Notes: generated by a model from the letters alone, not told the origin. Shown: positions 42,322 to 64,000, counted from the first letter of the stretch. The stretch: 64,000 bases of DNA from Acidobacteriota bacterium (GCA_022826825.1 JAJDUD010000064.1:62001-126000), one strand, 5' to 3'. Translations and numbers: made by a program.

Positions 42322-44058
42322 ATGACCAAGGCGCTTCTGGTCTATCCCGCACAACCGCCGACCTATTGGGGCGGCAACTACGCCCTGGAGATGGTGGACA
42401 TCAAGTCGGCGTTCCCACCCCTGGGTCTGCTCACCATTGCCGCCATGTTTCCGCCGGAATACGAGCTGCGGGTCGTCGACATGAACGTGGCTCCGCTCAC
42501 GGACTCCGATCTGGAATGGGCCGACCTGGTCTTCACCTCCACCATGATCGTCCAGCGGGTTTCCTTGCAGACGGTCATCGAGCGCTGCAACCGCGCCGGC
42601 GTCCCGGTGATTGCCGGAGGCCCGCATCCCACCACGTTCCACGACGAGATCCCCGGCGTCGACCACTTCGTGCTGGACGAAGTGGAGGAGATCTTTCCGG
42701 GATTCCTGCACGACCTGGAGAACGGGACCGCCGGGGCGATCTACCGGGAGCCAAGGAAACCCGACGTCACCCTGACACCCGTTCCCCGCTTCGACCTGAT
42801 CGACCTCGACAACTACTACTCGATGGGACTTCAGTTCTCCCGGGGATGCCCCTTCAACTGCGAGTTCTGCGACATCACCAAGCTCTACGGCCGGGTGCCG
42901 CGGACCAAGTCACCGGCCCAGCTGGTGACCGAGTTCGAGGCGCTGTACCGGTTGGGCTGGCGGGGACCCCTTTTCCTGGTCGACGACAACTTCATCGGCA
43001 ACAAGCGGGAAGCGATGGAGCTGCTGCCCGTCATCGCCGAGTGGCAAAAGGCTCACGGATACCCGTTTTCCCTTACCACGGAGGCGAGCGTCAACCTGGC
43101 CCACCTGGACGGGCTGATGGATGCCATGGTCGCGTCCGGATTCGACACCGTGTTCCTCGGCATCGAGACGCCCAATCCCAAGGCGCTGATCAAGACGAAG
43201 AAACAGCAAAACACCTCGAGGAGCGACGAGAACTTCCTGTTCAACGCGGTTCGCAAGATCCAGCGGAAAGGCATACAGGTCCAGGGCGGGTTCATTCTGG
43301 GACTCGACAGCGACGACGAGACGGTGTTCGACGCGCAGATCGAGTTCATTCAGCGGGCGGGAATCCCGGTCGCGCCGATCTACCTGTTGACGGCGCTCCG
43401 CGGCACCGACATGTACGAGCGGCTGCAATCGGAGAACCGGCTATTGGACGCGGCGATCGGCACCACCGCGATGACGCTCAACTTCAAGCCCGAGCTGGAC
43501 CCGGAGGTGTTGCTCGACGGGTTTCGGCGGGTAACCGCCACGCTCTACGACGCCACCCTCGAGAACTACTTCCAGCGCTGTCTGAACCTGTTCGAGCACC
43601 TCGAACCGGTGCCCCACCTGTTGAAGCCGATGGGGAGGAACGCCGTCGTCGTCGCCACCATGCGCCTGCGCCGGGAGCTTTCGAAGGAGCAGATTCCGGC
43701 CTTTTCACGGTTCATTGCCAGAGTCTCCCGCGACTCTCCCCGCCTGCTCCCCCTGGCGCTACGCCTGGCCGGCCTGGGCTACCACTTCGAAAAGATCACC
43801 CGACAGCAGGTCGCGATCCACGACTTCAAGGTGTTTCTGGAGGCTGAGCTGGATCTGTTCCGGGAGGCCGCTCTGGACCGCACGGAGCGCTCGGAGACCA
43901 TCCGCGACCGTCTGCAGGCGCTCTTCGCGCGTGCCGAGAGGCGTTACCGGGAGATACCCGGCGATCTTCGCCACGACGAAGACGGAGTCGACTTCGCTCT
44001 CGAGTCCTTCCGGTCCTCGGTGAGCGCTCAGGCGGAGCGTCCGTCCCGTTTCCGGTGA
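42322..44058 (+). CDS. B12-binding radical SAM protein, DUF4070 type
   Basis: 578 residues from the ATG at 42322. The N-terminal cobalamin-binding-like domain (1-150) is followed by a radical SAM domain with the CxxxCxxC cluster at Cys176, Cys180 and Cys183 (SRGCPFNCEFCDITKLYGR) and VDDNFIGNKR, TEASVNLA and GIETPNPKALIKTKKQQN. The C-terminal DUF4070 region (from about 400) is consistent. Relatives modify lipids or peptides, but the substrate here is unknown, and there is no partner gene in the same operon: the terminator at 44099 closes the unit. Confidence 0.9.
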   Translation: MTKALLVYPAQPPTYWGGNYALEMVDIKSAFPPLGLLTIAAMFPPEYELRVVDMNVAPLTDSDLEWADLVFTSTMIVQRVSLQTVIERCNRAGVPVIAGGPHPTTFHDEIPGVDHFVLDEVEEIFPGFLHDLENGTAGAIYREPRKPDVTLTPVPRFDLIDLDNYYSMGLQFSRGCPFNCEFCDITKLYGRVPRTKSPAQLVTEFEALYRLGWRGPLFLVDDNFIGNKREAMELLPVIAEWQKAHGYPFSLTTEASVNLAHLDGLMDAMVASGFDTVFLGIETPNPKALIKTKKQQNTSRSDENFLFNAVRKIQRKGIQVQGGFILGLDSDDETVFDAQIEFIQRAGIPVAPIYLLTALRGTDMYERLQSENRLLDAAIGTTAMTLNFKPELDPEVLLDGFRRVTATLYDATLENYFQRCLNLFEHLEPVPHLLKPMGRNAVVVATMRLRRELSKEQIPAFSRFIARVSRDSPRLLPLALRLAGLGYHFEKITRQQVAIHDFKVFLEAELDLFREAALDRTERSETIRDRLQALFARAERRYREIPGDLRHDEDGVDFALESFRSSVSAQAERPSRFR

Positions 44059-46527: not shown

Positions 46528-46565
46528 GAGTACCTCCTTGAAACATTGTGGAGATCGAGTGCGGA

Positions 46566-49500
46566 TCACCTCGAGATGACCCGGTCACCTCCGGCCCCCG
46601 GGTGCGCGGCTGCCGGGGGCCCCGGATGCCAGCCGGATCCCGCCCCCGCCGTCAGGCGATAGATCGCGGGCACCAGCAGCAGGGTGACGAGCGTCGCGAA
46701 CGCTACCCCGAACGAGAGCGAAACCGCCATCGGGATGAGCACCTGCGCCTGCACGCTCCCTTCGATCATCAGGGGCGCCAGCCCTCCGCAGGTGGTCACC
46801 GAAGTGAGGATGACGGGCCGGAAACGGAGCGGTCCGGCGGCGAGCGCCGCTTCCCGGACCGACGCCCCGCCGGCGCGGCTCCGGTTGATGAAGTCGAGGA
46901 GTACCAGGGCGTCGTTCACGACGATTCCGGTGAGCGGCACCATCCCGATGAAGCTGGTGAGGGACAGGGGAAGGCCCACGACCTGGTGACCGAAGACGGC
47001 CCCGGCGAGCCCGAAGGGTACGGCGGCCATGATCACGAAGGGCTGGGCCCACGACGACAGCGGGACGGCGAGCAGGACGTACACGAGGATCAGGGCCAGG
47101 ACCAGGTGTCCGCGGAGCGCCGCCATGGTCTCCTGCTGATCGCCGGCGCTTCCCACGACTTCGAATCCGAGTCCGGGAAAACGCTCCCGGACGGCGGGGA
47201 TCATCCGGGCCTCGGCTTCGGCGATCAGTCCGCCGGGGGAGGCCCGCTCCGGATCCACGCTCGCGCTGACCGTCACGGTGCGCTGATCGTCCAGCCAGCG
47301 GATGACCGACGGGCCCCGCTCCTGCGAGATCTCCGCCACCTGGCCGATCGCGACCGCCTCGCCGTCCGCCCGCCGGACCCGCATCCCGGTGACGGCGTCG
47401 AGGCTCCGCCGGCTCGACTCGGGGTAGCGCAGGAGCACCCGGATCTCGTCGTTCCCCCGCTGGATGCGCTGGATCTCCTCGCCGTGGAACGCCTGCCGCA
47501 ACTGCCTGCCGAAGTCCGCGGCGCCGATCCCCGTCGCGGGACCCCCGGAACGGACCCGGGCGACGAGTTCGGGCGCCTCGCCCTCGAGGTCGTCCGAGAC
47601 CGAGATGACCCCCGGGAACTCCCGTATCAACGCCGCGAGCGCCGCCGCCGCCGCCCGGAGCTCCTCGAGCGCGTCCCCGCGAATCCGGATCGACAGGTCG
47701 CTGCCCTGTCCGATGACCGAGGTGAGCACGGTGGCCTGGCCTCCGTGCGGGAGGGAGCCGGCGAGCGCGCGGAGTCGGTCGGCAATCCGGCGGGGGGGGA
47801 CCTCGGCCCGTTCCTCCGCGGGCGCCAACTCCCAGATGAGCTGGCCGATCCGGGCGTCCGCGCGGACTGTCGCTCCCCCGAGCTCGCCGCCGACCCCCAC
47901 CGGAAACCGCTGCCCCACCATCACGGCGAGGTTTTCGTGCGGATCGATGCCGTGTTCGGCCTCGAAGTCCCGCCGCACGCGCCCGATCGCGGCCTCGAGT
48001 TCGTCCACGACCTCGGCAGTGGCCGCCGTGGTCGAGCCCGGCGGCAGCGAAACCTGAACCCGCACCGCGTCGGAATCGAAGGGAGGCGCCGGCTCCACCG
48101 GGATCCAGCGGCCCCGCACGAGACCGAGCGCCAGCGCGAGCGACACCACGCCGAGGGCCACGGTCGCCCCGGGGTTGTCGATGGACCAGCGGAGCGCGGG
48201 CCGGTAGAGCGATTCCACCGTCCAGTCGAGCGCCGCCTGGATCCGGCCCCGGATGCGCGCGAGGCGCCGGCTCGGGCGAACGGCGAGCCCGCCGTGGGCC
48301 AGGTGATGGGGCAGGATCCAGGCGGCGTCCAGCATCGAGAACGCGAGCACCGGGATCACGATGCGGGGAAGCGTTCCCATGAGTTCGCCCCAGACGCCGG
48401 GAAGCCCGAGGAGCGGCGAGAACGCCGCCATGGTGGTCAACACCCCGAACGACGCCGGAAAGAGGACCTGCCGGACGCCGCGGATCGCCGCTTCCGAAGC
48501 TCCCGTCCGTCTCGTGGCGATGTGCCGGTGCACGTTCTCGCCGACCACGATGGCGTCGTCCACCACGATCCCGAGGGTGACGATGAAGCCGAACATGCTC
48601 ACCATGTTCAACGTCACGCCGAGTCCCGGCATCAGCAGGAAGGCGCCGAAGAACGCCACCGGCAGCCCCGCCGCGGTCCAGACCGCGACGCGGGTGGAGA
48701 GCGTGAAGAAGAGGACCAGGAAGATGAGCGCCAGACCCTGCAGACCGTTCCGGACGAGCACTTCCATGCGGCTGTCGAAGAGCCGCCAGGCGTCGGCCCA
48801 GGGGGTCAGGGTGAGCGGGGGCGGCAGCCGCCGGGAGGTCTCCCGGACCTGCGCCTGGACCGCCGTCACCGTCTCGAGCAGCCGCGCGTCCGGGGCCAGC
48901 ATCACCTCGAGGAACACCGCCGGTTCCCCGTTCATCCGCGCCGCCCGCTGGACATCGGTGAAGCCGTCGGTCACGGTCGCCACGTCCCCGAGCGCCACGA
49001 AGCCGCCCCCCGGGGTGCTGATGAGCGGAATCCGGGCGAACGCCGCCGCGGTCCCGGCTTCCGCCTCGGTCCTGAGGCGCACTTCGCTGACGCCGGTGCG
49101 GACCGATCCCGCCGGAATGTCCGTCGAAGCGCGGCGGATCGCCGCCGCCACCTGATCGAAGGTGAGCCCGAATCGGGACAGCACGTCCTCCGACACCTCG
49201 ATGGAGATCTCGTAGTCCCGGCCGCTCGCCGTTTCGACGGCCGCGACGCCCGGCACGCGGGAGAGGTCCTCCCGGACCCGGTGCGCCGCCTCGGTGAGCG
49301 CGCGCTCGTCCGCCCGACCGTGCACCGCGACCCGCAGCAGCAGGCGCCTCGTGGAACTCTCGCCGATGACCGGATCCTCGGCGTCGGCGGGCAGGCTGGT
49401 GATCGACTCGACGCGTTCCCGCACCTCGTCGCCGACGCTCTGGAAATCGGCCCAGTACTCCAGCTCGACCGTAAGCGTGCCGACCCCGTCGCGCGCGGTT

Positions 49501-49784
49501 CCGGAGATCTCCCGGATCCCCCCGACGTCCCGCAGCACCTCCTCCATGGGCTTGAGCACGCTCGCTTCGATGACGGAGGCGCCGGCCCCCGGCCAGGCGG
49601 TCCTGACGGTCAGGGTCGAAGGGCTCGTCTCCGGCACCAGTTCCTGCGGGACGCCGCCGATCGTGAGGATGCCGGCCAGCGAGATCGCGAACAGGAGCAG
49701 GTTCGCGGCGACCCGGTTCCTGACGAACCAGGCGATCACGCCCCGCGAGGGCGGCCCGCCGGCCGGCGTGGCTTCCTGCGACAC
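46566..49784 (-). CDS. RND efflux pump subunit, second of two
   Basis: 1072 residues from a GTG with GAGAGGT upstream. Twelve transmembrane helices in two halves and two periplasmic porter loops are expected; visible are the first helix (VAANLLLFAISLAGILTIGG), VDDAIVVGENVHRHIA in TM4 with the paired Asp of the proton relay, and VNDALVLLDFINRSRAGG in TM10. It is similar in overall form to the preceding pump but not a close copy. It likely forms a pump with MFP and the other RND protein. The substrate is not deducible. Confidence 0.9.
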   Translation of the reverse strand: MSQEATPAGGPPSRGVIAWFVRNRVAANLLLFAISLAGILTIGGVPQELVPETSPSTLTVRTAWPGAGASVIEASVLKPMEEVLRDVGGIREISGTARDGVGTLTVELEYWADFQSVGDEVRERVESITSLPADAEDPVIGESSTRRLLLRVAVHGRADERALTEAAHRVREDLSRVPGVAAVETASGRDYEISIEVSEDVLSRFGLTFDQVAAAIRRASTDIPAGSVRTGVSEVRLRTEAEAGTAAAFARIPLISTPGGGFVALGDVATVTDGFTDVQRAARMNGEPAVFLEVMLAPDARLLETVTAVQAQVRETSRRLPPPLTLTPWADAWRLFDSRMEVLVRNGLQGLALIFLVLFFTLSTRVAVWTAAGLPVAFFGAFLLMPGLGVTLNMVSMFGFIVTLGIVVDDAIVVGENVHRHIATRRTGASEAAIRGVRQVLFPASFGVLTTMAAFSPLLGLPGVWGELMGTLPRIVIPVLAFSMLDAAWILPHHLAHGGLAVRPSRRLARIRGRIQAALDWTVESLYRPALRWSIDNPGATVALGVVSLALALGLVRGRWIPVEPAPPFDSDAVRVQVSLPPGSTTAATAEVVDELEAAIGRVRRDFEAEHGIDPHENLAVMVGQRFPVGVGGELGGATVRADARIGQLIWELAPAEERAEVPPRRIADRLRALAGSLPHGGQATVLTSVIGQGSDLSIRIRGDALEELRAAAAALAALIREFPGVISVSDDLEGEAPELVARVRSGGPATGIGAADFGRQLRQAFHGEEIQRIQRGNDEIRVLLRYPESSRRSLDAVTGMRVRRADGEAVAIGQVAEISQERGPSVIRWLDDQRTVTVSASVDPERASPGGLIAEAEARMIPAVRERFPGLGFEVVGSAGDQQETMAALRGHLVLALILVYVLLAVPLSSWAQPFVIMAAVPFGLAGAVFGHQVVGLPLSLTSFIGMVPLTGIVVNDALVLLDFINRSRAGGASVREAALAAGPLRFRPVILTSVTTCGGLAPLMIEGSVQAQVLIPMAVSLSFGVAFATLVTLLLVPAIYRLTAGAGSGWHPGPPAAAHPGAGGDRVISR

Positions 49785-49887
49785 CCGGACCTCTCGACCT
49801 ACCGGATCGCCGGCCGCGCGGAACCGACCAACCGCGCGGCCGGCGTCCCGGGCCCGACGAGACGGCCGGGCCCGGCCGTCTCGCGGA

Positions 49888-52800
49888 TCACACTTCGGCT
49901 TCTTCCGCGCCGCCGGAGTCCAGCTTCAGCATCTCGGCGACGATCAGGACCGCCGGAATGAAGAACAGCAGCCCGATGCTCGCGAAGGCGAGTCCCGCCG
50001 TCAGGCTGATGATCATCGGAACGGTGTACTGCACGGTCTCGCTCTTGTCGTAGAGCAGCGGCAGGAGACCGACGATCGTCGTGGCGCTCGTGATCACGAT
50101 GGGACGCGCGCGATCCCGGGCGGCGGCGGAGATCGCGGCGATGACCGGGAAGTCCGGGTTCTCCCGCCGCATTCCGTTGTACCGGTCCATCAGGAGCAGC
50201 GTGTCGTTCACCACGACCCCGGAGACGGCGACCAGGCCGAAGACGGAGACGTAGTTCAGTTCGTAGCCGAGCACGAAATGCCCCAGCACGGCGCCCACGC
50301 CGGCCATCGGCAGGCCGGCGAGCGCCAGGAAGGGCTGCGCGAGGTTGCGCATCTGGGACGCCAGCAGCCCGAAGACCGCGAGCATGGCGAGCGGGAACGT
50401 CCAGGCGAGCGTCCCGGCGGTAAGCCTGCTCTGGCGGGTCGATCCGGCCGCGTGGACCTCGAGCCCCGGGTGGCGCTCGACGAGTGCCGGGAGGATCTCC
50501 CTGCTCACCGCGCGCTGTACCCGGAGGCCGGCCCCGACCTCCGGGTCGTAGAAGGCGGTTACGGTGGCGGTGCGACGCCCGTCGAGTCGCGTCAGCGTGG
50601 CGTAGTCCTGGATCTCGGTGATCCGAGCGACCGTGGACAGGGGCGCGTCCTTTCCCGGGCCCAGGGAGATGCGCTCGTCCAGCAGGTCCCGCAGACTGCG
50701 GCGGCGTTCCGCCGGATAGCGGACGACGACCCGGATTTCGTCCGGCCCACGCTGGATCCGCTGGGCCTCGGCGCCGAAGAATGCGTCCCGGAGCTGGTTG
50801 GCGAGACGCCGGGGGGTCAGTCCGGCCATGAAACCGGTTTCGCTCAACTGGATGTCGTAACGCCGGGCTCCGGGAGCGAGCGTGTCGTGGACCTCCCGCG
50901 TGGCCTCGATGTCCAGCGCGGCATCCCGCAACTCGTCCACCGCTCGGGCGACGACCTCCAGATCGTCGTGCGCCAGGGTGTAGGAGACGCTCGGAGAGAA
51001 CATGTCCGCGCTGGTCACGAAGTGGACCCGCTCCGCGCCCCGGATCTCCCCCAGCCGGTCCCGCCACAGCCTCAGGAAGTCCACTTCATCCAGTGGGCGC
51101 GGCGACGGAGCGAACTTGACCTCCACCGTGGCCAGGTGGGTCCCTTTCGGGTAGTTCCGGGTCCCCACCATCGCTTGCCGGGGCAGCCGCTGGCCGACGA
51201 GCACCGCGATGGATTCAAGCTGGCCGCCGCCGACCGCCTCATTCGCGGCCCGGGCCGCCCCGGCGAGCTGATCCGCCGCCGCTGCGGTGGTCCGGGCCGG
51301 GGTTCCCGCGGGCATGGTGATTTCCGCCGCCAGGCGGTCGGAGCCCAGGCTGGCGGGGAACGGATTGAGGGGAACCGCCTCGACGACGACGAGCACCAGC
51401 GCCAGCACCACCGCTGCGGCCACTGCGGCGATCACCACGAACGGCGCGCGCACGGCCCGGGCGATGGCCCGCACCAGCTTGCCCTGAATGAGCTCGTCGA
51501 AACCGCCGCGCGTCCGCGCCTGGATTTCGGCCAGGGGCGAGAGACTCCAGCGCCGGTCTCCCGCGAGATGTCCGGGAAGGACGAAGAACGCCTCGACCAG
51601 CGAGAACAGCAGGACCAGGATGAGTGCGATCGGCACCACCCGGAACATCTGTCCCAGCGCGCCCTCGAGCGGGAGCAGGGCCGCGAAGGCCACCATGGTG
51701 GTGAGTCCTCCCACCACCACCGGCCCCCCGACCGACCGCAACCCGGCAATGGAGGCCGCCGCGCCGCGGTGTCCCCGCTCCCGCTGCTTGGCGATGGCCT
51801 CGCCCACCACGATCGCATCGTCCACCACGATGCCGGTCACCACGAAGAAGGCGAACACGGTGAGAACGTTGAGGGTGAGGCCGAAGGCGTCGAACAGCAG
51901 GAACGAGCCCACGAAGGACACGGGGATACCCACCGCGACCCACAGCGACATCCGCAGGTCGAAGATCAGCAGCAGCGCGACGAAAACGAGGACGGCTCCG
52001 AAGAGCCCGTTGCGGGCCATCCGGGAGAGCCGGAAGTCGATGATCCGGGTCTCGTCGTCCCACAGCGCGATGTCTGCGCCGGACGGCGGGGCATAGCCGT
52101 CGAGGAAACTCTTGACCTCCTCCGCGACCTCCTGAGGGGGCTGTCCGGCCCCCGCATGAACGCGAACGAACACGGCCGGCCGGCCGTCGATCCTGGCGGA
52201 CACCTCCGCTTCGTCGAAGCCGTCCCGGACCGTCGCCACGTCCCGGGTCCGGACGAGCGAGCCGTCCGGGCGGGCGAGCAGGACGATGTCCCGGAACTCG
52301 TCCGCGGTCTCGCGTTTCGCGAGGGTGCTGATGACCACGTCGCCCGCATCCGTCCGCACCTCGCCCCCGGTCGCGTTCACGGACGACCCGCGAATGCGGC
52401 TCACCACTCCGGCGATGGTGAGTCCGTAGCGCCTCAGGGCCTCCTCACTCAGCTCGATCTGGATCTCGCGGTCGCGCACCCCGGCCAGGGACACGAAGGA
52501 CACCGAGGGCAGCGCGAGGAGGTCCGCCCGGAGCGCCTCGCCGGCTCCGCGTAGCCCGTCCTCGTCGAGTTCCGTCGAGGTCAACGCAAAGGTCAGGACC
52601 GACCGGATCACTTCGGTCCGCACGATTTCGGGTTGATCGGCCCGCGCCGGCGGGAAGTTCTCGATGCGCTCGACCGCCGTCCGCGTGGCGTTCAGCACGT
52701 CCACGGCGTCCGCGAAGGGCTTCAGTTCCAGCGTGACCTGGCTCCGCCCCTCGCTCGAGGTCGCGATCACGCGCTCCACGCCGACGATGCCGGAGACCGC

Positions 52801-53073
52801 CTCCTCGATTCGTGCGGTGACGTCCGCCTCGACCTCCGCCGGGGTCGCGCCCCGGAAGGGCACCGCAACCGTGATCGAGCGCGGGTCGTAGTGCGGCGCG
52901 CGCTCGACGGTGAGCCGCGACGCGGCGAACAGGCCGCCGCCCAGGAGCAACAGCATGAGGAGGTTGGCGGCGACGTGGTTCCCCGCGAACCAGGCGACCG
53001 GTCCCCGGGGGGTGTCCGGACGGGATCCGGAGGGGGGCATTCGCCCTTCGCCCTGTTGGTTCATGGTGTCCAT
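49888..53073 (-). CDS. RND efflux pump subunit, first of two
   Basis: 1061 residues from the ATG at 53073 (a second ATG at 53064 is also possible); GAGGT lies 8 nt upstream. TM1 VAANLLMLLLLGGGLFAASRL, TM4 VDDAIVVGEAIAKQRERG and TM10 VNDTLLLMDRYNGMRRE mark an HAE/HME-type RND transporter with proton-relay residues. It follows the MFP gene by 24 bp. Two different RND pumps in one operon may act as a heteromeric pump, as known for MdtBC. Confidence 0.9.
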   Translation of the reverse strand: MDTMNQQGEGRMPPSGSRPDTPRGPVAWFAGNHVAANLLMLLLLGGGLFAASRLTVERAPHYDPRSITVAVPFRGATPAEVEADVTARIEEAVSGIVGVERVIATSSEGRSQVTLELKPFADAVDVLNATRTAVERIENFPPARADQPEIVRTEVIRSVLTFALTSTELDEDGLRGAGEALRADLLALPSVSFVSLAGVRDREIQIELSEEALRRYGLTIAGVVSRIRGSSVNATGGEVRTDAGDVVISTLAKRETADEFRDIVLLARPDGSLVRTRDVATVRDGFDEAEVSARIDGRPAVFVRVHAGAGQPPQEVAEEVKSFLDGYAPPSGADIALWDDETRIIDFRLSRMARNGLFGAVLVFVALLLIFDLRMSLWVAVGIPVSFVGSFLLFDAFGLTLNVLTVFAFFVVTGIVVDDAIVVGEAIAKQRERGHRGAAASIAGLRSVGGPVVVGGLTTMVAFAALLPLEGALGQMFRVVPIALILVLLFSLVEAFFVLPGHLAGDRRWSLSPLAEIQARTRGGFDELIQGKLVRAIARAVRAPFVVIAAVAAAVVLALVLVVVEAVPLNPFPASLGSDRLAAEITMPAGTPARTTAAAADQLAGAARAANEAVGGGQLESIAVLVGQRLPRQAMVGTRNYPKGTHLATVEVKFAPSPRPLDEVDFLRLWRDRLGEIRGAERVHFVTSADMFSPSVSYTLAHDDLEVVARAVDELRDAALDIEATREVHDTLAPGARRYDIQLSETGFMAGLTPRRLANQLRDAFFGAEAQRIQRGPDEIRVVVRYPAERRRSLRDLLDERISLGPGKDAPLSTVARITEIQDYATLTRLDGRRTATVTAFYDPEVGAGLRVQRAVSREILPALVERHPGLEVHAAGSTRQSRLTAGTLAWTFPLAMLAVFGLLASQMRNLAQPFLALAGLPMAGVGAVLGHFVLGYELNYVSVFGLVAVSGVVVNDTLLLMDRYNGMRRENPDFPVIAAISAAARDRARPIVITSATTIVGLLPLLYDKSETVQYTVPMIISLTAGLAFASIGLLFFIPAVLIVAEMLKLDSGGAEEAEV

Positions 53074-53097
53074 CCCGGTGACCTCGGGTCGGCGCGC

Positions 53098-54231
53098 CTA
53101 CTCGGCGACCCGGACGGCGAGTCCGGGCCGCGCTCCGACGACCCGGCCCACCACGACGCCCTGACGGGGATCGAACGCTTCGACCAGCCAGCCGGCTTGG
53201 GTCCTTCCGAGCGTTTGTGGAGTGACGGACTGCAGGGCGCCCCCGTCCACCACCCAGACGCTCCCCCCGGGCTGTTCGGCCGCCTCGGGAAGCGCGAAGA
53301 CATCCGAGAGAACCGGCCCTCCGAGGCCGACGATGGCGAACGTGCCGGGCCGGGGAAGGTTGCGGGCGTTCCCGCGAAACGCCAGGAACAGGGTGACGAG
53401 CCGGCTCTCCCGATCCACCACGGCCGCGACCCGATCCACCGACGCCGCGAACTCCCGTCCTCCGGCGCGTACCGTGGCGCGGCGGCCGACGATCGGCTCG
53501 AGGCTGGTCAGTTCTTCCTGTGAGATCTGGGCCTCCACCTGAAGCGCTCCGTCCTGGTACACCAGTCCGAGCGGCGTATCCCGCCCCACGACCTGACCGA
53601 CGGTGGCCCGCGCGCTCGCGACCTGCCCGTCGAAGGGAACCGAGATCTCGGTGCGGGAGAGAACGATCTCCGCCTGCTCCACCCCCTTTAGCGCGCGGTC
53701 CAGGTCGGCCTGCTTCTCGGCGATCTTGGCCGTCCGGGCGACGAGTGGCGGCGGCTCCTCTCCGGGATGGTCCCGGTGGAACTCCTGGACCGCGGCCTCC
53801 GCTTTGTGCTCCTGCCGCAGCAGGCGCGCCTCCGCGTAGCGCACCCGCGCCCGGGCGGCCTCAAGGCGGTTCGTGGCGTCGCGCTGATCGATCCGGACCA
53901 GCGTCTCCCCGGCCGCGAAGGAGCCGCCGTTCCGGAGGGCGGGAGCCACGTAGACCACTTCGCCGCGGTTGTGGCTGAACAGCCGCACCCCGTCCAGAAT
54001 GGTGACCGCGCCCGTGGTGCGCACGTTCTGCGCGGCCTCGCCCGGCGCCGGCTGGATGACGGTGACGGTCGGGACCCCCGGCTCGGCAAGCCTCAGGTCG
54101 TCCGTGTGCGCCTGCCCCCGGGGAGCGCGGGCGAACCAGATGGCCACGAGTACGCCAACGACGATGACGACGATCTGCAGGGTTCCGCGCCAACCCCCGC
54201 GTTCGGCTGTGGCGCCGCCTTCTTCGAGCAT
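53098..54231 (-). CDS. Membrane-fusion (HlyD/AcrA-like) efflux adaptor
   Basis: 377 residues from the ATG at 54231, with GGGAGGT before it. An N-terminal membrane anchor (LQIVVIVVGVLVAIWFA) is followed by the usual hairpin with a helical coiled-coil (about 110-200: RLEAARARVRYAEARLLRQEHKAEAAVQEF ... KQADLDRALKGVEQAE), lipoyl halves around it (GEVVYVAPALRNGGSFAAGETLVRI; ISVPFDGQVASARATVGQVV) and a beta-barrel domain. It is first in the operon and links the inner-membrane RND proteins to an outer-membrane channel, which is not encoded here. Confidence 0.88.
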   Translation of the reverse strand: MLEEGGATAERGGWRGTLQIVVIVVGVLVAIWFARAPRGQAHTDDLRLAEPGVPTVTVIQPAPGEAAQNVRTTGAVTILDGVRLFSHNRGEVVYVAPALRNGGSFAAGETLVRIDQRDATNRLEAARARVRYAEARLLRQEHKAEAAVQEFHRDHPGEEPPPLVARTAKIAEKQADLDRALKGVEQAEIVLSRTEISVPFDGQVASARATVGQVVGRDTPLGLVYQDGALQVEAQISQEELTSLEPIVGRRATVRAGGREFAASVDRVAAVVDRESRLVTLFLAFRGNARNLPRPGTFAIVGLGGPVLSDVFALPEAAEQPGGSVWVVDGGALQSVTPQTLGRTQAGWLVEAFDPRQGVVVGRVVGARPGLAVRVAE

Positions 54232-54886
54232 CGTGACCTCCCGTTCCGGGGAGCGGCAGCGCCGGGTGAACTCCGGTCCATGACGGGGCCCGGATACCGA
54301 CGCCTCCCCAATAGGCCGATTGTCCCTCAATTGGGACTGCCTTCACCACGTGAAAACTCCAGGTGTCACGAGTCTCCGCGGTTGACCGTGATGTAGCGGC
54401 GTTGCTGGAGAGCCGACCGGCGAGCTGCCGGGCCAGGTGCTCCAGGGCCCCGGTTCCGGGGAACGGTGGGCCGCTCCGCTCACGAAACCGTAGGGCTCCA
54501 CCTTCTTCGAAACCGAGGTGCTCACCGGGTGAAACGAGGCCGCGCGCGTCGTGCCCACCTGTGTTGGGCGCCACTCCGGAGGCTTGATTCCCCGGACGGT
54601 GTCCGGCAAGATAACTCCGGTGGGTCCGGTGTGAACCAGGGGGTCGAGGTGATCGTGAGCGTTGCCGGAGGCGGCACGGCATCCCCTGAACCTCGCCGTT
54701 CCTGGAACCTGCGCGCAGCCGTTCAGGAGGGACTCCGCTGATCGCGCAAGGCTTCCCGGCGGCATCCTCCGTCGCCTCCTTCCCTGCGAGGTGCGGCCAA
54801 CGCCGGACTCGTCGCGGGCGGCGTCTTCATTCTGATCCGAGCCTTGCGCGTTCTGCCCGGCCCCGCGCCTCCCGTTAGAGCACACG
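54232..54886. other. 655-bp divergent intergenic region between efflux operon and PKS
   Basis: The gap separates two large, divergent transcription units and must hold their promoters. Short open frames are present but none with recognisable motifs. The only distinctive sequence is the dyad at 54322-54337. Confidence 0.5.
54322..54337. promoter_or_regulatory. Dyad GTCCC-N6-GGGAC in the divergent region
   Basis: GTCCCTCAATTGGGAC is a 5-bp inverted repeat about an AATT core, 91 bp before the MFP start and 550 bp before the PKS start. It might be an operator of the efflux operon. The regulator is not in this window. Confidence 0.4.
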
Positions 54887-57800
54887 ATGGATGATCCGAG
54901 GTCCGACGATGCCGTCGCCATCGTCGGATATTCCCACCGCCTGCCAGGCGGCCTCCGTACCGACGACGATTTCTGGCGACTCCTGAGCGAACGGGAAACC
55001 GTCCGGGAGCCCGTCACCGGCCGCTACGGGCGGGGCTACCGGCCGATCGGAGAGTTCTCGGGGCCGGGCCGCTTCGCGAGCGCCTACGAAGGCCTGATCC
55101 GCGACGAGGGGGAGAAGCTCTTCGATCGCGGTCTGTTCGGCATGTCGCACCACGAAATGCTGTCGGCCGATCCGCACGTACGGATGCTGTTGACCTGTAC
55201 CTGGGAGGCCTGTGAACAGGCCGGATGGGACCTGCTGTCGTTGCGGAACAGCCGAACCGGCGTCTTCGTCGGAGCACAGGTTCCGGCAACCTCGAACTGG
55301 CGCCGGCCGCTGGGCGCAACCGAGTTTTCCATCGCCAGCATCAGCGTGGCCATGCTGGCCAACCGCATCTCCTATCACTTCAACCTGATGGGACCCTCGC
55401 TCGCCTGCTGCACCGCATGTTCCGCCAGCCTGACCGCGCTGCATACCGCGTTGAACGCACTGCGCTCCGGCGACTGCGAACAGGCTTTCGTGGCGTCGGC
55501 CAACTACCTGGGCTCCGCGCGGCTCAGCACCGGCTTCAACGCGCTGGGGGTCATCAGCCCGGATGGGCGATGCCACTCCTTCGACGCGGAGGCGAACGGC
55601 TACATGCGTTCGGAAGGAGCCTTCGTTTTCGCGATCAAACCGCTGGCGGCGGCCGAACGGGACGGCGACCCCATCCACGCCGTGGTGGAGGCCACCGCGA
55701 TCAATGCCGCAGGCGCCGCCGACGGTGCTCCGGGCCTTGCGGCGGGGCGCTACATCACGGCGCCGACCCGACATGCGCAGGTGGACCTGATGCGCGCGGC
55801 CTGCGCCCGCGCCGGCCGGGAGCCGCGGGAGTTCGACTACGTCGAAGCCCATGCGACCGGCACGGTGGTCGGCGACCGCATCGAGGGCAACGCCATCGCC
55901 GAAGCGTTCGGTGACGGGCGGGACGCGCCGCTCCGGGTGGCAAGCGTCAAGAGCAACGTGGGGCACATGGAAGCGGCGGCGTTCACGGCGGCCCTCCACA
56001 AGGTCGTGCTGATGATGCGGCGGCGGACCTTCGCGCCGGTGTCGAAGAACTACGTGGTCGCGAATCCGGACATCGACTTCGACAGTTGCCCGATGCTGGT
56101 GCAGACGGCCTGCGATCCGTTCCCGGACCGCCCGGTGCTGGTCGGCATCAACTCCTTTGGCTTCGGCGGCTCCAACGGGCACTGCGTGGTCCGCGAATAT
56201 CGTCCCGAGTCCCGGCGGATCTGGTCGGTGCCGCTCGCGGGCAAGGCCGGTTTCATGGTCCCGCTGTCGGCGCGGACGTCCGGCGCTCTGGAAAAGAGCG
56301 CCCGAGCGCTGCGCGAGACGCTCGAGCGCCGGGAGATGGACCTGTACACCCTCGCCGGCAATCTCAGCCGCCGCCGCACCCATTTCGCCACCCGGACCTC
56401 GTTCGCCGTCCGCACCCGGGACGAGCTGATCGAAGCGCTGCGGGGTTTCGAGCGGGATCCAACCCCCATCGCCACGGCCGATCCCGAACAGCGCCGGATC
56501 GCCATGGTGTTTTCCGGACAGGGCACGCAGTGGGCCGGTTGCGGGCGCGCGCTGTACGACGCCGATCCCGTCTTCCGGCGGGTCGTCGATGTCATCGAGG
56601 ACCATTGGCGGGAGCACTCGGCCCGTTCGTTGCGCGAGGCCTGTTTCTCCGCCCCGCAGGAAGCGCTCAACGAAGTCCAGCTCGCCCAGCCCGTCATCTT
56701 CATGCTCCAGTGCGCGCTCGTGGAGCTGTTCAAGACCTGGGGCGTCTATCCCGAGTGCGTGGTCGGACACAGCTCCGGCGAGGTGGCGGCCGCCTATGCC
56801 AGCGGAGCGCTCTCCCTGGAGGAGGCAACGCGCCTGGTGTTCCATCGCGCCACCCTCCAGCAGCGCACGGCCGGCTCCGGCCGCATGCTGGCGATCGGCC
56901 TGGACCGGCCGGGCGTCGAGGCGTTGCTCGAGTCGCTGGGAGTGGGCCGGCAACCCGCAACGGACGCCGCTCTGCGCGTCGAGATCGCTTGCGAGAACGC
57001 CCCCGCCAGTACCGTCATCTGCGGCCGGGAAGCCGCCGTGCGCTCCGTCATGGAAGGACTGGACGGGCGCAACGTGCAGCATCGGCTGATTCCCGGGAAC
57101 ATCGCGTTCCACTCCAGCGCCATGGATCCGATCCGGGAGGACGCCCTCGCGGCGCTGCGCTTCCTGGACGAAGGCGCGTTCGACGCCGACGTACCCATGG
57201 TTTCCTCGGTGACCGGGGTCGCGGCGCAGGCGCTGGACGCCGCCTACTGGTGGTCGAACATCCGTCGGCCGGTGCGATTCGCGCAGGCGATGGAGACCAT
57301 CGTGCGGAACCACCGGCCCGACGTCATCCTGGAAATCGCGCCGCACAGCGCCCTGCAACCCACGATCGCGCAGTGTCTCGAAGGCGATGCCGGGCGTTCG
57401 GTCTGCATTCCGACGCTGATGCGTGACACCGATGCGAGCCGCGGCTTCCACGAGGCCCTCGGAGCGCTGTTCCGGGCGGGTGTCCACCTGGACTTCGCCG
57501 CGCAGTATCCCCGTCCCGAGCCGATCGGCCACCTGCTGCCCGGGTATCCGCGCGACGACCAGTCGGCGTCCGACGACATGAGCGACGACGAGATGTTCCT
57601 CGAGCTGGGGGAGTACGCCCACGGCCCGCTGATCGGCCACCGGGTGCCGTGCGAGCACCCGCTGTTCGAAGCGCGGCTTTCCGAGTCGGATTTCCCCTGG
57701 TTGGCGGAGCACCGCGTGCACCACGCCTCGATCATGCCGGCGGCCGGCTACATCGAGTTGCTCCTGCAGGCGTTCGAGGGCGTTCCCCTGCATGTGGAGA

Positions 57801-60800
57801 CGCTCGAGTTCCTGCAGCCGTGTCCCATCCCCAAGACGCCGGTGCGGCTCCAGACGGAGCTGTTTCCCGTGGCCAACGCGCCGGACGAGTTCACCTTCAC
57901 CATCTCGTCCCGATCGTATGAACCGGATGCCCGCAGCGAACTGCACTCGCGCGGAACCCTGCGCCTCGTAACCGGCGACCACCCGGTGAACGCGCCGCCG
58001 CGCCTCGCGGACATCGACACGACCGGCTTCGAGCCCTACTACTTCGTGGGCGAAAGCGACTTCTACGAGCGCATCGACGCGAGCCTGGGCGAGACCTTCC
58101 AGTACGGCCCCTGTTTCCGCACCATCAAGCGCGTCCTGTGGGAGGGCACGACGGCCGACTATCTGTTCGACGTCGAGATGGACGAGCGGTTGTGGACGAC
58201 GGGCCGCGACGAGGGATACGTCGCGAACCCCGCGCTGCTCGACGGCGGACTCCAGATCTTCCTCTATCACCTGCTAAGGGCGACGGACATCTTCGCCATG
58301 CCGAGGCGCGCCCAGGGAGTGACCTTCCTGCGCCCGCCGACCGGGCCACGGCTGACGCGTTACGTGAAGAAGGAAAAGGACTGGGCGGACGTCAACGAAC
58401 TGGGACAGTTCACCGAGCGGCGCGGGGAGCGCTCCGGGGGCAGCATCCGCTTCTATGACTCCGACACGGGCGATCTGGTGGCGTGCATCGACGCCTACGT
58501 CTCGTTCAACTCGAACCCGCGCTGGAACGACCTGCCCCGCAGCAAGCACGTCGTCTCCTGGCAGCCCAAGTTCGTTGCTGCCGAACCGCCTCTGACGCAG
58601 GTTCGGCCGGACGGCGAGTTCGAGCCCTCGGCCCTGGTCGCCGCGCTGGAACGGCCCGGAAGCGATCGCCGCGCCTGCCACGTCATCGAGTTCGCGGGCG
58701 GCCGCCCGCCGGAGGAAACCATCCTGAACCAGTGCCTGGACTCCCTGGACGGCGACCCCACGCACACCGAGTTCTGGGTGATCGGCGAGACGGAGGAGCA
58801 CACCCGGGCCCACTACGAGGCCTTCCAGGGCCGGGAGACCGCCCTGCGCTTCGTTTCCCTGGATCTCGCCGCGGAGCCGGCGGCGGATCTCGACACGGGT
58901 CTCCTGCGGCCGCACGCCGCCGAGATGCTGTGGCTGCACGAGGACGCCGCGGCGTTCGGGCCGGAGCAGTGGCGCCTGTTGCGGCGGCTCGCGGTCCCCG
59001 GCGGTCTGGCGCTGGTGGTTCATGGCGACGGCAGGACCGTGGAGGCGGACGGCGCCTGGACCACGGTGCACGCCGGCCGGCGCTCGACCCTGCTGCGGGC
59101 GCGGGACGCCGTCCCGGACCCCCAGGACCCGCGTCCGTTGCCCGGACCCCGGTGGGTCATCGGCGCGCCGGACAGCCCGGCCGCGGAGTGGCTGGCCCGG
59201 CTCGGCGACGCTGAGGCGATCTCCATTCCGTACGGGGAACTGGAGGACGATCGTGTCGGTACCCTCGCGGAGTGGCCCGCGGCGGCCGACCTGCGGGCGA
59301 TCGACATCTTCTGCGGCGCCGATCCCGAGGACCCGACCGGGCAGGCGCTCGTGACGCGCCTGATGGCCTTGTTCAAGGCGCTGATCCCCTTCCGCGTGGA
59401 GAACGCGCGGGGCCCCTGCCGCGTGACCCTGGTGACGCGCCGCGCCGTGATGGATGTGGCGGAACCGCGGGCGAGCGCGGTCTGGGGAGCCATCCGCAGT
59501 CTCGGGCATGAGATCGCCGCCGACTTCGGTACGGAGGCCGCGATGGATCTGCGGCTCGTGGATGTGGGCGGCGCCGAGGACCTGACGGCGTTGCGGTGGC
59601 TCGGCGAGTGCGACCTGCGGGAGCGGGAGTTGGCGATCCGCAGCAACCGGGTGTGGGCGCCGCGCCTCCTCCCCGTCCGCGAGCGTTCTCCGCTCGTCGC
59701 CGCGGGCGAGGAGTCCACCTACCGGCTGACGCTCGACAATCCGGGCCAGATCGGCGGGCTGCAGATGAAGACCTACGAGCCCGCCTCCCTCGGACCGCGC
59801 GACGTGGAGATCGAGATTGCCGCAGCGGCTCTCAATTTCCGCGACGTCATGGTGACGCTGGGGATGCTGCCGGCGCTCTCCTATGAACGCTCTGCCCTGG
59901 GCCGTACGGTGGGGATGGAAGCGAGCGGGGTCGTGCGCCGCGTGGGGAGCGGGGTGCGCACCTGCCGTGTTGGTGACGAGGTGGCCTTCACCCAGGGCGG
60001 CTGTATCGCCAACCGCGTGGTGGTCCGGGACTACCTGGTGTTCCCGAAACCCCGGGCGCTGAGCCTGGAGGAAGCCGCTTCGGCGCTCTCCGTTTACGTC
60101 ACGGCGTACTACTCCCTCCTGCATCTCGCCCGCCTGCGCGCGGGCCAGCGGGTGTTGATCCACTCGGCCATGGGAGGCGTCGGCCAGGCGGCGATCGCCC
60201 TGGCCAAACACGCGGGCGCCGAGATCTACGCCACGGCGGGAAGCGAGAGCAAGCGCGAACAACTGCTCGCTCTCGGTGTGCGCGCGGCATTCGATTCCCA
60301 CGGTTTCGATTGGTACGAAGGGGTGATGGAGGCGACCGGCGGCGAGGGCGTCCAGGTGGTCCTGAATTCGCTCGCCGGCCACCACCTCGCGCTCTGCCTG
60401 AAGGCGCTCCAACCCGGAGGGTGGCACTGCGAGATCGGCAAGGTGGACATCTACGCCGACAACGCGCTTCAGCTCAGCGTTTTCCGCAAGAACCTGCGCT
60501 TCGCGGCGATCGATATCGACCGTCTGATGAGCGACGATCCGGAGTTGGCGCGCGAGCTCTCGCAGGAGTGCCTGGACCTGCTGGAGCGGGGCGCCGTGCC
60601 TCCCTTGCCGATGACCAGCTTCGGCTACGGCGACTACGCGTCGGCGCTGCGCCTGATGACCACCGGCCGGCACACCGGAAAGCTGGTGCTCCAGGCCCCG
60701 CGAGATCCGGGCGGCGAACGCTTCCCGATCGTGGATCTGCGCCCGTATCTCGACCCGGAGGCGACGTACCTGGTCACCGGGGCGCTCGGCGGATTCGGCC

Positions 60801-61975
60801 GGCTGCTCCTGCCCTACCTGGCGGCAGCCGGGGCGCGCCACGTCACGCTGATGGACCGCGATCCGGAGCGCGGCCGCAGCGACGACTGGGTCCGCAAGAC
60901 GAGCGCTCTGTGGTACCTCACCGAAGCGATCGAGATCGACATCGTTTCGGGGGACGTCGCCCTCGAGGAGGACGTCCGGCGGTGTGTCCAGGCGTTGCAG
61001 CGGCCCCTGAAGGGCGTGTTCCACCTCGCGGGCGCCCTCGACGACTGCCTGCTGGCCGACCTGACACCCGAATCGCTCGACAGGGTCTTCGCGCCCAAGG
61101 CGCGGGGCGCCCTCAATCTGCACCGGGCGACGGCCGACTGCCCCCTGGACCACTTCGTGCTGTTCTCCTCCGTCGCCTCGACGTTCGGCAACCTGGGACA
61201 GATCAACTACAGCGCCGCCAACGGATTCCTGGACGGCCTGGCCGCTTTCCGCCGCCGCGCGGGGCTCCCCGCTCTCAGCTACAACCTGGCAGCCGTCGCC
61301 GAGGCCGGAATGGCTTCGCGCAATCTGCACGTCCTGCGGCTCGCCCGGTCGTCGGGCATGCCCCCGGTCAGCGCCGACTTCGCCATCACCAATCTCGACT
61401 ACGCCATGCGGCGGATGGGGGACCGGGAACACCTGATCACGGCCGTCTTCTCCCGGCCGCCGCTGAGCCTGGACTCGCCGGACTACCTGCGGACCGGGCG
61501 CCTGCTGAGCAACCCGGACGCGTTCTCGGTGGAGGTGGGCGGCCAACTCACGCTGGACACGGTGGTCGCCCAGATCGCGGCCAAGGTGGCCGAGCTGTGC
61601 GGACACGAAGAGGGCGGCCCGGAGGAACCGCTGTCCAGCTTCGGGCTTACCTCGATCTCGGTCGCCGAACTGGGAGCCTTCATCCGGATGGAGTTCAACT
61701 TCCAGGTCAGCGCCCTCGAACTGATGACCGAGGCTTCGGCACTCTCGCTGGCGCAGGACATCATCCACGGGAAGCAGGAGGTCGAGGAGAAGCAGGCCGA
61801 CCGGGATGAGACCGGCCTCGACACCGATTCCGCCGCGGGCCCGCAGCGCGCCCGCCGGCGGCCGTCGGCCTTCGCGAGCGCCCTCGAAGACCACTTTCCG
61901 CAGGTGAACCGAGGCGCCTCGGCGCGTGATCCGCATCCCTTGCGATCCGGTCTGCGAAGCCTTGAAGCGCCATGA
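54887..61975 (+). CDS. Type I iterative polyketide synthase, single highly reducing module
   Basis: 2362 residues from the ATG at 54887. Domains in order: KS (about 8-437; Cys178 in CCTACSASL, His in EAHATGT and in KSNVGH), AT (about 537-862; VFSGQGTQ, Ser in GHSSGE, IAFH rather than YASH, which suggests malonyl), DH (about 924-1200; His in EHRVHHASIMP with the motif Gly replaced by His, Asp in LLDGGLQ), a degenerate methyltransferase-like region (about 1260-1400), a structural-KR-like segment, ER (about 1611-1935; GGVGQAA), KR (about 1958-2140; TGALGGFG, NYSAAN) and ACP (about 2210-2290, Ser2256 in GLTSIS). No thioesterase follows; a reductase gene overlaps the stop by ATGA. A lipid-like, highly reduced chain is expected. 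Confidence 0.93.
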   Translation: MDDPRSDDAVAIVGYSHRLPGGLRTDDDFWRLLSERETVREPVTGRYGRGYRPIGEFSGPGRFASAYEGLIRDEGEKLFDRGLFGMSHHEMLSADPHVRMLLTCTWEACEQAGWDLLSLRNSRTGVFVGAQVPATSNWRRPLGATEFSIASISVAMLANRISYHFNLMGPSLACCTACSASLTALHTALNALRSGDCEQAFVASANYLGSARLSTGFNALGVISPDGRCHSFDAEANGYMRSEGAFVFAIKPLAAAERDGDPIHAVVEATAINAAGAADGAPGLAAGRYITAPTRHAQVDLMRAACARAGREPREFDYVEAHATGTVVGDRIEGNAIAEAFGDGRDAPLRVASVKSNVGHMEAAAFTAALHKVVLMMRRRTFAPVSKNYVVANPDIDFDSCPMLVQTACDPFPDRPVLVGINSFGFGGSNGHCVVREYRPESRRIWSVPLAGKAGFMVPLSARTSGALEKSARALRETLERREMDLYTLAGNLSRRRTHFATRTSFAVRTRDELIEALRGFERDPTPIATADPEQRRIAMVFSGQGTQWAGCGRALYDADPVFRRVVDVIEDHWREHSARSLREACFSAPQEALNEVQLAQPVIFMLQCALVELFKTWGVYPECVVGHSSGEVAAAYASGALSLEEATRLVFHRATLQQRTAGSGRMLAIGLDRPGVEALLESLGVGRQPATDAALRVEIACENAPASTVICGREAAVRSVMEGLDGRNVQHRLIPGNIAFHSSAMDPIREDALAALRFLDEGAFDADVPMVSSVTGVAAQALDAAYWWSNIRRPVRFAQAMETIVRNHRPDVILEIAPHSALQPTIAQCLEGDAGRSVCIPTLMRDTDASRGFHEALGALFRAGVHLDFAAQYPRPEPIGHLLPGYPRDDQSASDDMSDDEMFLELGEYAHGPLIGHRVPCEHPLFEARLSESDFPWLAEHRVHHASIMPAAGYIELLLQAFEGVPLHVETLEFLQPCPIPKTPVRLQTELFPVANAPDEFTFTISSRSYEPDARSELHSRGTLRLVTGDHPVNAPPRLADIDTTGFEPYYFVGESDFYERIDASLGETFQYGPCFRTIKRVLWEGTTADYLFDVEMDERLWTTGRDEGYVANPALLDGGLQIFLYHLLRATDIFAMPRRAQGVTFLRPPTGPRLTRYVKKEKDWADVNELGQFTERRGERSGGSIRFYDSDTGDLVACIDAYVSFNSNPRWNDLPRSKHVVSWQPKFVAAEPPLTQVRPDGEFEPSALVAALERPGSDRRACHVIEFAGGRPPEETILNQCLDSLDGDPTHTEFWVIGETEEHTRAHYEAFQGRETALRFVSLDLAAEPAADLDTGLLRPHAAEMLWLHEDAAAFGPEQWRLLRRLAVPGGLALVVHGDGRTVEADGAWTTVHAGRRSTLLRARDAVPDPQDPRPLPGPRWVIGAPDSPAAEWLARLGDAEAISIPYGELEDDRVGTLAEWPAAADLRAIDIFCGADPEDPTGQALVTRLMALFKALIPFRVENARGPCRVTLVTRRAVMDVAEPRASAVWGAIRSLGHEIAADFGTEAAMDLRLVDVGGAEDLTALRWLGECDLRERELAIRSNRVWAPRLLPVRERSPLVAAGEESTYRLTLDNPGQIGGLQMKTYEPASLGPRDVEIEIAAAALNFRDVMVTLGMLPALSYERSALGRTVGMEASGVVRRVGSGVRTCRVGDEVAFTQGGCIANRVVVRDYLVFPKPRALSLEEAASALSVYVTAYYSLLHLARLRAGQRVLIHSAMGGVGQAAIALAKHAGAEIYATAGSESKREQLLALGVRAAFDSHGFDWYEGVMEATGGEGVQVVLNSLAGHHLALCLKALQPGGWHCEIGKVDIYADNALQLSVFRKNLRFAAIDIDRLMSDDPELARELSQECLDLLERGAVPPLPMTSFGYGDYASALRLMTTGRHTGKLVLQAPRDPGGERFPIVDLRPYLDPEATYLVTGALGGFGRLLLPYLAAAGARHVTLMDRDPERGRSDDWVRKTSALWYLTEAIEIDIVSGDVALEEDVRRCVQALQRPLKGVFHLAGALDDCLLADLTPESLDRVFAPKARGALNLHRATADCPLDHFVLFSSVASTFGNLGQINYSAANGFLDGLAAFRRRAGLPALSYNLAAVAEAGMASRNLHVLRLARSSGMPPVSADFAITNLDYAMRRMGDREHLITAVFSRPPLSLDSPDYLRTGRLLSNPDAFSVEVGGQLTLDTVVAQIAAKVAELCGHEEGGPEEPLSSFGLTSISVAELGAFIRMEFNFQVSALELMTEASALSLAQDIIHGKQEVEEKQADRDETGLDTDSAAGPQRARRRPSAFASALEDHFPQVNRGASARDPHPLRSGLRSLEAP

Positions 61976-64000
61976 GTGAGTCCGTCGCCTCCGATCGCAC
62001 GCCACCGCCGCTTCGCGGGACCCTTCCGCCCGCCTGTCAACGGGATGTCGCAACCCTGCGCGGGTTCATCCGGGCGCTCGTCCGTGACGAATCGCCCGCG
62101 GCGGCAGTGTCGCCGGATGATTTCCGCGAGGTCCTGCTGACGGGAGCGACCGGCTTCATCGGGCGATTCTTCCTGCGCGACCTCCTGCAGCGGGATTCCG
62201 GTCTGACGGTGCACTGTCTGGTGCGGACCGACAGCGAGGAGGATGGATGGGAGCGCCTGCGCACCGCCCTCACGGATGCCGGTCTCTGGGACGACACGTT
62301 CGCCTCGCGCATCCGCGTCGTGCCCGGCGACATCGGCGCCGCGCGGCTCGGCCTGAGCGACCCGCATTTCAGCGATCTCTGTCAGCGGATCGATGCCGTT
62401 TACCACCTGGCGGCCGACATCAACCTCACCTCTTCCTATATCGGCGTCCGGAAGCTCAACACGCTCAGTCTGGCAAATGTGGTCGAACTCTGTGTGCGCC
62501 GCCGCTTCAAGCACCTGTTCCATGCCTCGACCATGGCCGTGTTTCCCGAGTATTTCTTTGCCTTCGCGCGCGAGTTCAGGGATCGCGCCATCGGTCATCA
62601 GATGCAGCCGGATCTCGCCAGCATGAAACGCAGGTTTCCGGTCGGATTCATGGGCTACCCGTGGAGCAAGCTGACCGCGGAGCAGGTTCTCCTCTTTGCG
62701 CAGCAGGCCGGAATGCCGCTCGCTATTTTCCGGCTGCCGCAGACGGCCGTGTCGAGCACCGGATACGTCCAGCCGAACGACCTCACGATGAAGATTCTGG
62801 GCGCCGTGCTCGACTGCGAGTCCCTGCCGGACGGATTCACCTTTCGTTCCAACCACGAGGTCGTGGACACGTTGAGTCAGGCCTGCACGGCCATCTCACG
62901 GAACTCCGGGCGCCGGTTCACGATCTACCACTGCTGCAACCCGCAGCTCGACTACTACGAGCTTGAACTCGCCGATTTCGGAGTCTATTTCCCGAGCACC
63001 TCCTACGAGGCCTTCAAGCGCGCCTGCCATGCGCGCGGCGACCAATCGCCCCTCCGCGGGTCCTGGGCGCTGCTCGATCACTTTGGGGAATACTGGTTCA
63101 GCAGGGACAAGCCGGTTGACCGGCTGCCCATTTGCGACCGCGCCTTCCGCGAGGACTGTCCGGACCCGATCCGGTGGCCGGGCGTGCTCACCAAACTCAG
63201 GCGTTCCTACTGGCGGGGACAGGAGAATCGGAAGGACTGGCCGTATCCGGCGTCACACGGCGAGCTGGATTTCGCCCGCCTGATCGAGCGGGCCGAACAC
63301 TACGCCCAGGACTGCGGCGTCCGCTTCGATCAGGCGTATCCGCCGTGGATGCGCCAGAACCTGAAGCAATTGGTGCGGGCTCTTCGGGGATCCGACGCCA
63401 GGCTGTTGGAGAACACGATCGTCGACACCGCTTTCGACCTGAGCCGTCTCCTGGTGATCAACGCGGGCATTACCCGCGAACGGCAGCGGTACCCGGAGAT
63501 CGAGCGGGAGGAAATCAGGCGCCCCGTCTTCATCGTCGGGATCAACCGCACGGGCACGACCTATCTGCACTGTCTGATGTCCCGCGACCCACGGTTCTGG
63601 GCGTTGCGGGGCTACGAGTTCGCGGCGCCGCGGCTGTCGAAGCATCAATACGCCACGATCGGGGGTACTGCGGACGATCCCCGGCGGCTGTGGGTCGAGG
63701 ACATGCTCCGTTCATCCGATGCCGTAGGGCTGTTCGAGGGGGTCCACGACTTCAACGTGGACGAACCGTCGGAGGACTTCCCGATCCTGAGCATGGCTTT
63801 CGCGTCGTGGACGCTCCTTGCCCGATATCGCATCCCGGAGTTCGGAGACTGGCTGTCCACCACCGGTTCGGACAATGCCTACGCCCACCACCGCCGCATC
63901 ATGCAGAACTACACCTGGCAGCGGCGGCAACGCCCACCGGGGCGCCGGCGGCAATGGTTGTTCAAGATGCCCTTCCACCTGATGGAGCTGGAGACCCTGA
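61972..64000 (+). CDS. Thioester reductase fused to sulfotransferase, cut by window edge
   Basis: 676 residues are visible and the frame is open to the right edge. The ATG overlaps the PKS stop (ATGA). The first half is an NAD(P)-dependent thioester-reductase/SDR domain: TGATGFIG at 57-64, HLAADINLTSSY, and a Tyr-xxx-Lys pair in GYPWSK. From about residue 515 a sulfotransferase_3-type domain starts, with the PAPS-binding loop in VFIVGINRTGTTYLH. Reductive release of the PKS-bound chain as aldehyde or alcohol, then sulfation in the same polypeptide, is the obvious hypothesis. The C-terminal catalytic residues of the sulfotransferase lie outside the window or near its edge. Confidence 0.85.
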   Translation, partial: MSESVASDRTPPPLRGTLPPACQRDVATLRGFIRALVRDESPAAAVSPDDFREVLLTGATGFIGRFFLRDLLQRDSGLTVHCLVRTDSEEDGWERLRTALTDAGLWDDTFASRIRVVPGDIGAARLGLSDPHFSDLCQRIDAVYHLAADINLTSSYIGVRKLNTLSLANVVELCVRRRFKHLFHASTMAVFPEYFFAFAREFRDRAIGHQMQPDLASMKRRFPVGFMGYPWSKLTAEQVLLFAQQAGMPLAIFRLPQTAVSSTGYVQPNDLTMKILGAVLDCESLPDGFTFRSNHEVVDTLSQACTAISRNSGRRFTIYHCCNPQLDYYELELADFGVYFPSTSYEAFKRACHARGDQSPLRGSWALLDHFGEYWFSRDKPVDRLPICDRAFREDCPDPIRWPGVLTKLRRSYWRGQENRKDWPYPASHGELDFARLIERAEHYAQDCGVRFDQAYPPWMRQNLKQLVRALRGSDARLLENTIVDTAFDLSRLLVINAGITRERQRYPEIEREEIRRPVFIVGINRTGTTYLHCLMSRDPRFWALRGYEFAAPRLSKHQYATIGGTADDPRRLWVEDMLRSSDAVGLFEGVHDFNVDEPSEDFPILSMAFASWTLLARYRIPEFGDWLSTTGSDNAYAHHRRIMQNYTWQRRQRPPGRRRQWLFKMPFHLMELETL

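Follow-up and report, generated by a model that had tools for sequence, protein, structure and literature searches.

The locus analysed here raises the question of which family of polyketide synthases (PKSs) is represented by a single-module enzyme whose gene runs into that of a fused thioester reductase (R) and sulfotransferase (ST), and of what such a pair would produce. The window, i.e. the whole stretch of 64,000 nucleotides that was analysed (G000:C25:62001-126000), comes from an Acidobacteriota bacterium. The original prediction, made from this sequence, had described at positions 54887-64000 one PKS protein with KS, AT, DH, ER, KR and ACP signatures, coupled by ATGA to a second gene carrying the reductase and the sulfotransferase, and had proposed a sulfated lipid as product. 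Both genes were recovered (Table 1): Pfam matches were obtained for all six PKS domains, the start of the second gene at 61972 overlaps the end of the first by ATGA, and its protein matches NAD_binding_4 and Sulfotransfer_3. The predicted span is right for this pair, hereafter swfA and swfB, but it ends before the end of swfB and omits a third gene, swfC. Extension to the right, as had been proposed, completed swfB to 835 aa, its end lying 479 bases past position 64000 on the same contig, and brought DUF420, DUF2911 and aminotransferase genes 3' of it, which show no obvious connection with lipid biosynthesis.

Table 1. Coordinates of the swf genes, their domains and the intervening cassette (window positions unless otherwise indicated)
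Feature	Position	Strand	Details
swfC	42322..44058	+	578 aa; B12-binding / radical SAM / DUF4070 (HpnP-like)
TonB-dependent receptor, two RND permeases, RND adaptor	44203..54330	-	between swfC and swfA
swfA PKS ORF	54887..61975	+	2362 aa; single module KS-AT-DH-ER-KR-ACP (Pfam)
KS	54908..56209	+	Pfam aa 8-385, C-terminal extension to 503
AT	56507..57484	+	Pfam aa 541-866
DH	57626..58348	+	Pfam aa 914-1154; motifs HRVHHASIMP, DGGLQ
ER	59732..60694	+	ADH_N/ADH_zinc_N aa 1636-1935; LNFRDV, NADPH motif HSAMGGVGQAA
KR	60761..61300	+	Pfam aa 1959-2138; motifs TGALGGFG, INYSAANGF
ACP	61571..61756	+	Pfam aa 2229-2290; phosphopantetheine site GLTSIS
swfB (5' 676 codons)	61972..64000	+	continues to G000:C25:126479; full 835 aa
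SwfB thioester reductase	62131-63072	+	NAD_binding_4, E 6e-47
SwfB PAPS sulfotransferase	from 63523	+	Sulfotransfer_3 aa 518-775, E 3e-32

For SwfA, the main match of each Pfam domain exceeds its curated cut-off, and the catalytic residues are intact according to the motif alignment. As for SwfB, the reductase domain was also recognised by TIGR01746 (aa 54-367), slightly below the cut-off of that model. Its nucleotide motif TGATGFIG and Y-x-x-x-K pair (GYPWSK) are intact, as are the 5' PAPS motif INRTGTT and the 3' motif THREPARFMGS of the sulfotransferase. Other R-ST fusions, for which a search had been suggested, exist as full-length SwfB homologues (58-70% identity over about 830 aa) in Acidobacteriota, Nitrospirota, Latescibacterota and Alphaproteobacteria, the distribution outside Acidobacteriota being drawn from one scan of genome contigs; the nearest relative is found in the Acidobacteriota isolate RHO1_bin_67 (97% identity). 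All ten full-length homologues keep the motifs of both domains, bar minor substitutions, and H592 and H669 are invariant in their alignment. A lack of residues for reduction or PAPS transfer, named beforehand as counter-evidence, does not apply, since these residues are present and conserved. The best solved relatives are MxaA 4u7w and 8v1x for the reductase, and 2zq5 and 2z6v, which we take to be mycobacterial sulfotransferases, for the sulfotransferase; the predicted structure of SwfB itself had a mean pLDDT of 42 and was discarded. By description, a contiguous C-terminal R+ST like that of SwfB also occurs in the coccidian multimodular FASs, which are eukaryotic and multimodular (PMC3908369).

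Genes for an APS kinase, which would provide PAPS, and for a phosphopantetheinyl transferase are present in the host genome. As a side observation, an APS kinase within a 690-aa frame (G000:C40:260952-261398) is separated by some 8 kb from PKS KS domains (C40:269431-274800), where it possibly supplies PAPS near another polyketide cluster. The same genome has some eleven other KS domains of type I PKSs (G000:C25:636-4376, C26, C27, C35, C36, C20 and C40), many of them on short contigs or at contig ends.

Concerning the family, the window pair was compared with swf, known since 2013 and, together with one other PKS family, described as widespread in sponge microbiomes. The published family comprises SwfA (KS-AT-DH-ER-KR-ACP, 2349-2361 aa), SwfB (R+ST, 832-839 aa) and SwfC (B12 radical SAM, 585 aa) (PMC3908369). 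The window has a single-module SwfA with the same domain order and, in the same operon, the R-ST fusion, with 2362 aa for SwfA, 835 aa for SwfB and 578 aa for SwfC. In swf KSs, I or V stands for the second Q of DPQQR and HATGT for HGTGT (PMC3908369); the window KS reads DPHVR, with V for the second Q, and EAHATGT, next to the motifs TACSAS (active site) and KSNVGHM. All four AT signatures published for swf (IAFH, GHSSGE, QCALVEL and FSGQGTQW; PMC3908369), which are of the malonyl type, were found in the window AT. Across the nine SwfA-type proteins that were collected, the published signatures hardly vary; SwfA-type proteins of other loci are 66-82% identical to the window SwfA.

A KS tree was computed from the KSs of the same genome, FabF, WcbR/RkpA-type KSs (Paraburkholderia and Caballeronia capsule loci), other plasmid PKSs and swf-type KSs. 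The eight swf-type KSs (the window and seven others) form one group with 100/100 support, whereas the further KSs of the host genome cluster together (90/99). Identities of the window KS to the swf KSs range from 78 to 91%, the nearest being that of another acidobacterial family (91%), followed by Latescibacteria (86%) and Nitrospira (82%). With swf members identified through their motifs, their domain order and the tree, the loci gathered here serving as tree references, the window pair is, as judged from its sequence, SwfA-SwfB of the published swf family. Because swf-like clusters were previously reported in sponge Acidobacteriota, Nitrospirota and Latescibacterota (PMC9426513), the window cluster adds a new member to an established family. 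The predicted kinship with single-module PKSs of sponge symbionts therefore stands, but not the sup type that had been put forward: sup (sponge symbiont ubiquitous PKS), sponge-associated and mono-modular as the window PKS is, constitutes a separate family (PMC3908369, PMC4245539), set apart from the window PKS by description, and membership in it is unlikely given the swf placement. Nor did the KS fall among enzymes with known, different products, which had been named as grounds for rejection; the swf clade has no known product. On a plasmid of Deinococcus sp. QL22 (L038:7917-22796), adenylation, thioester reductase and aminotransferase genes lie 3' of a single PKS gene, forming an operon for reductive release of a different type.

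The third gene, swfC, was missed by the original prediction and lies 10.8 kb upstream of swfA, outside the swfAB operon. In swf operons, SwfC is a CX3CX2C B12 radical SAM protein, with none in one published locus (PMC3908369). The window protein carries the cysteine motif CPFNCEFC and is 66-73% identical to the products of full-length genes that other loci have between swfA and swfB. When homologues with and without linkage to swf were placed in one tree, it grouped at 100/99 with swf-linked SwfCs from one Latescibacterium and two Alphaproteobacteria; no second SwfC homologue was found in its own genome. Judging from this placement, the window gene is the orthologue of the swf-linked swfC. SwfC-like proteins were found in 71 of the 396 sampled Acidobacteriota genomes, vs. 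five with SwfB-like matches (one of which is a sulfotransferase only, at 31% identity), so SwfC belongs to a broader family, part of which has been recruited into swf. Since SwfC-like enzymes are thus common in Acidobacteriota without swf, the tie of the detached gene to swfAB would be one of descent only. Across 36-64 kb of the window, no B12 riboswitch or other RNA family was detected at gathering threshold.

The AlphaFold model of SwfC (pLDDT 86) has AprD4, MgmA, TsrM, CysS, TokK and OxsB as best matches, and the matches are mostly B12 radical SAM enzymes, several of them methyltransferases. Its B12-binding, radical SAM and DUF4070 domains are also those of HpnP and HpnP-like proteins (PMC10697835); no function is known for HpnP-like proteins beyond the HpnP clade (PMC10697835), and a hopanoid role for SwfC is not indicated. 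Together, the fold matches and the HpnP-like domain set point to methylation as the likeliest activity of SwfC.

We infer from these elements that SwfA works iteratively, assembling a largely saturated acyl chain on its ACP from malonyl units; chain length and the other features of the product are presumed likewise. The SwfB reductase would carry out a four-electron release of the chain, via the aldehyde to the primary alcohol, the sulfotransferase would transfer the sulfate of PAPS onto the released alcohol to give an alkyl sulfate-type lipid, and SwfC, from its separate locus, would most likely add a methyl branch via B12 and radical SAM chemistry. For this scheme as a whole, a probability of roughly 0.6 seems appropriate. 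A terminal primary sulfate was already suggested as swf product in 2013 (PMC3908369), and the alkyl sulfate of the original prediction repeats that unproven proposal. Expression of swfABC in E. coli gave no product (PMC3908369), none is reported for any swf cluster in the literature surveyed, and a search of the literature for an alkyl sulfate from sponges linked to such genes gave nothing usable.

It is also possible, albeit clearly less probable, that the reductase stops at the aldehyde, as many R domains do, and that sulfate is placed on another hydroxyl (a beta-hydroxyl or that of a separate acceptor) or serves as a CurM-type leaving group. The 2013 authors raised alternatives for the R and ST domains, including curacin (PMC3908369), and the PAPS competence of the sulfotransferase is deduced by motif only. 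However, the complete KR/DH/ER set suggests reduced chains, and CurM-type release, in which the sulfotransferase is followed by a thioesterase, needs a domain that the Pfam search found in neither SwfA nor SwfB.

As regards gene order, the published swf loci are A-B-C, A-C-B, or A-B with no C found, whereas in the window swfC stands behind the opposite-strand TonB/RND cassette, which on present evidence is outside the pathway. Among the loci gathered here, L014, L015, L017, L018, L022 and L032 are A-C-B, while L019 and L020 are A-C-C-B with tandem swfC. The tandem genes (L019:6613-10008 and L020:6400-9957) belong to two distinct SwfC subgroups. RHO1_bin_67 shares the split order, in pieces over two contigs: the first ends with argC and the first 355 codons of swfC, and the second (L013, JAPPGX010000088.1) holds the remaining swfC, the TonB receptor, the RND genes, swfA and swfB. 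On this second contig the start of swfA is missing, with an exact join at 5393 linking window positions 52860 and 57364, across which identity shifts from 92% to 98%; a true deletion was not adopted, the evidence being a single short contig with a possibly chimeric join. Among the loci seen, the split swfC is specific to the lineage of the window.

Three states of one chromosomal site were found within another acidobacterial genus. The first (G024) is A-C-B, with swfB cut by the contig end. The second (G050, L030:12524-15011) has swfA-swfB without swfC in between and SwfB broken into two reading frames around residue 640, which could reflect decay or an assembly error. In the third (G322, L033:17827-17841), about 9 kb with swfA and most of swfB are gone relative to G050 (L030:5203-14221), leaving a 275-aa ORF with a sulfotransferase domain. 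The idea that a SwfC homologue on another G050 contig is a relocated swfC was dropped, since this homologue clusters with a G298 paralogue located next to FG-GAP and UnbV_ASPIC/redoxin genes. In G024, SwfA groups with those of the window and G050, but SwfC and SwfB group with those of L022, so that an exchange of swf genes between loci seems to have taken place, the G024 SwfB being partial and the SwfA and SwfB trees having SH-aLRT support only.

This series of intact, C-less and frameshifted, and bare remnant states, together with the long branch of the window swfC (0.26 in the SwfC tree), might suggest that the window cluster too is decaying, with swfC displaced and swfAB heading to loss. 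We consider this unlikely: none of the three window genes is truncated, their motifs are intact, and SwfB and the first 355 swfC codons are 97-98% identical in RHO1_bin_67, vs. 77-92% for the flanking proteins.

A role of SwfC in coupling or rearranging chains in a Tes/Mss-like manner, instead of methylating them, would make the product a two-headed sulfated lipid. Such a role would suit SwfC as a radical SAM enzyme that is linked to a synthase of the lipid type, and Mss homologues are present in the same phyla. It is nevertheless quite improbable, as the SwfC domain set is that of HpnP-like proteins, the top listed fold matches are mostly B12/radical SAM enzymes, and Tes appears neither among the sequence matches nor among the fold matches listed.

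Finally, a WcbR/RkpA-type capsule-lipid synthase, whose chain anchors a surface polysaccharide, shares the single reducing module (L036, L037), is found among the best plasmid-collection matches and was the initial annotation of poribacterium-assigned swf genes, but can hardly be the case here, given that the WcbR KSs form a clade apart (100/98), with DPQQR/HGTGT motifs (PMC3908369) and only about 39% identity to the window KS, and that their capsule gene context and missing R-ST partner contrast with swfAB, beside which no capsule biosynthesis or export, LpxC-like or oxononanoate-synthase-like genes were seen. All four alternatives rank lower than the scheme of a reduced, sulfated and methyl-branched chain.

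While the swf system itself was already known, the detached swfC, the split common to a close relative and the intact, broken and deleted series in a related genus are new. More tentatively, swfC may be a separable, trans-acting module, an HpnP-like lipid enzyme that was recruited into swf and detached again here, in which case the product might be a methyl-branched or radical-modified alkyl sulfate whose modification is swappable. The window copy, its split relative and the one-genus series define a three-gene set for co-expression, namely swfA, swfB and the distant swfC. A swf locus seemingly without swfC may thus carry it elsewhere in the genome, which bears on the choice of expression constructs.
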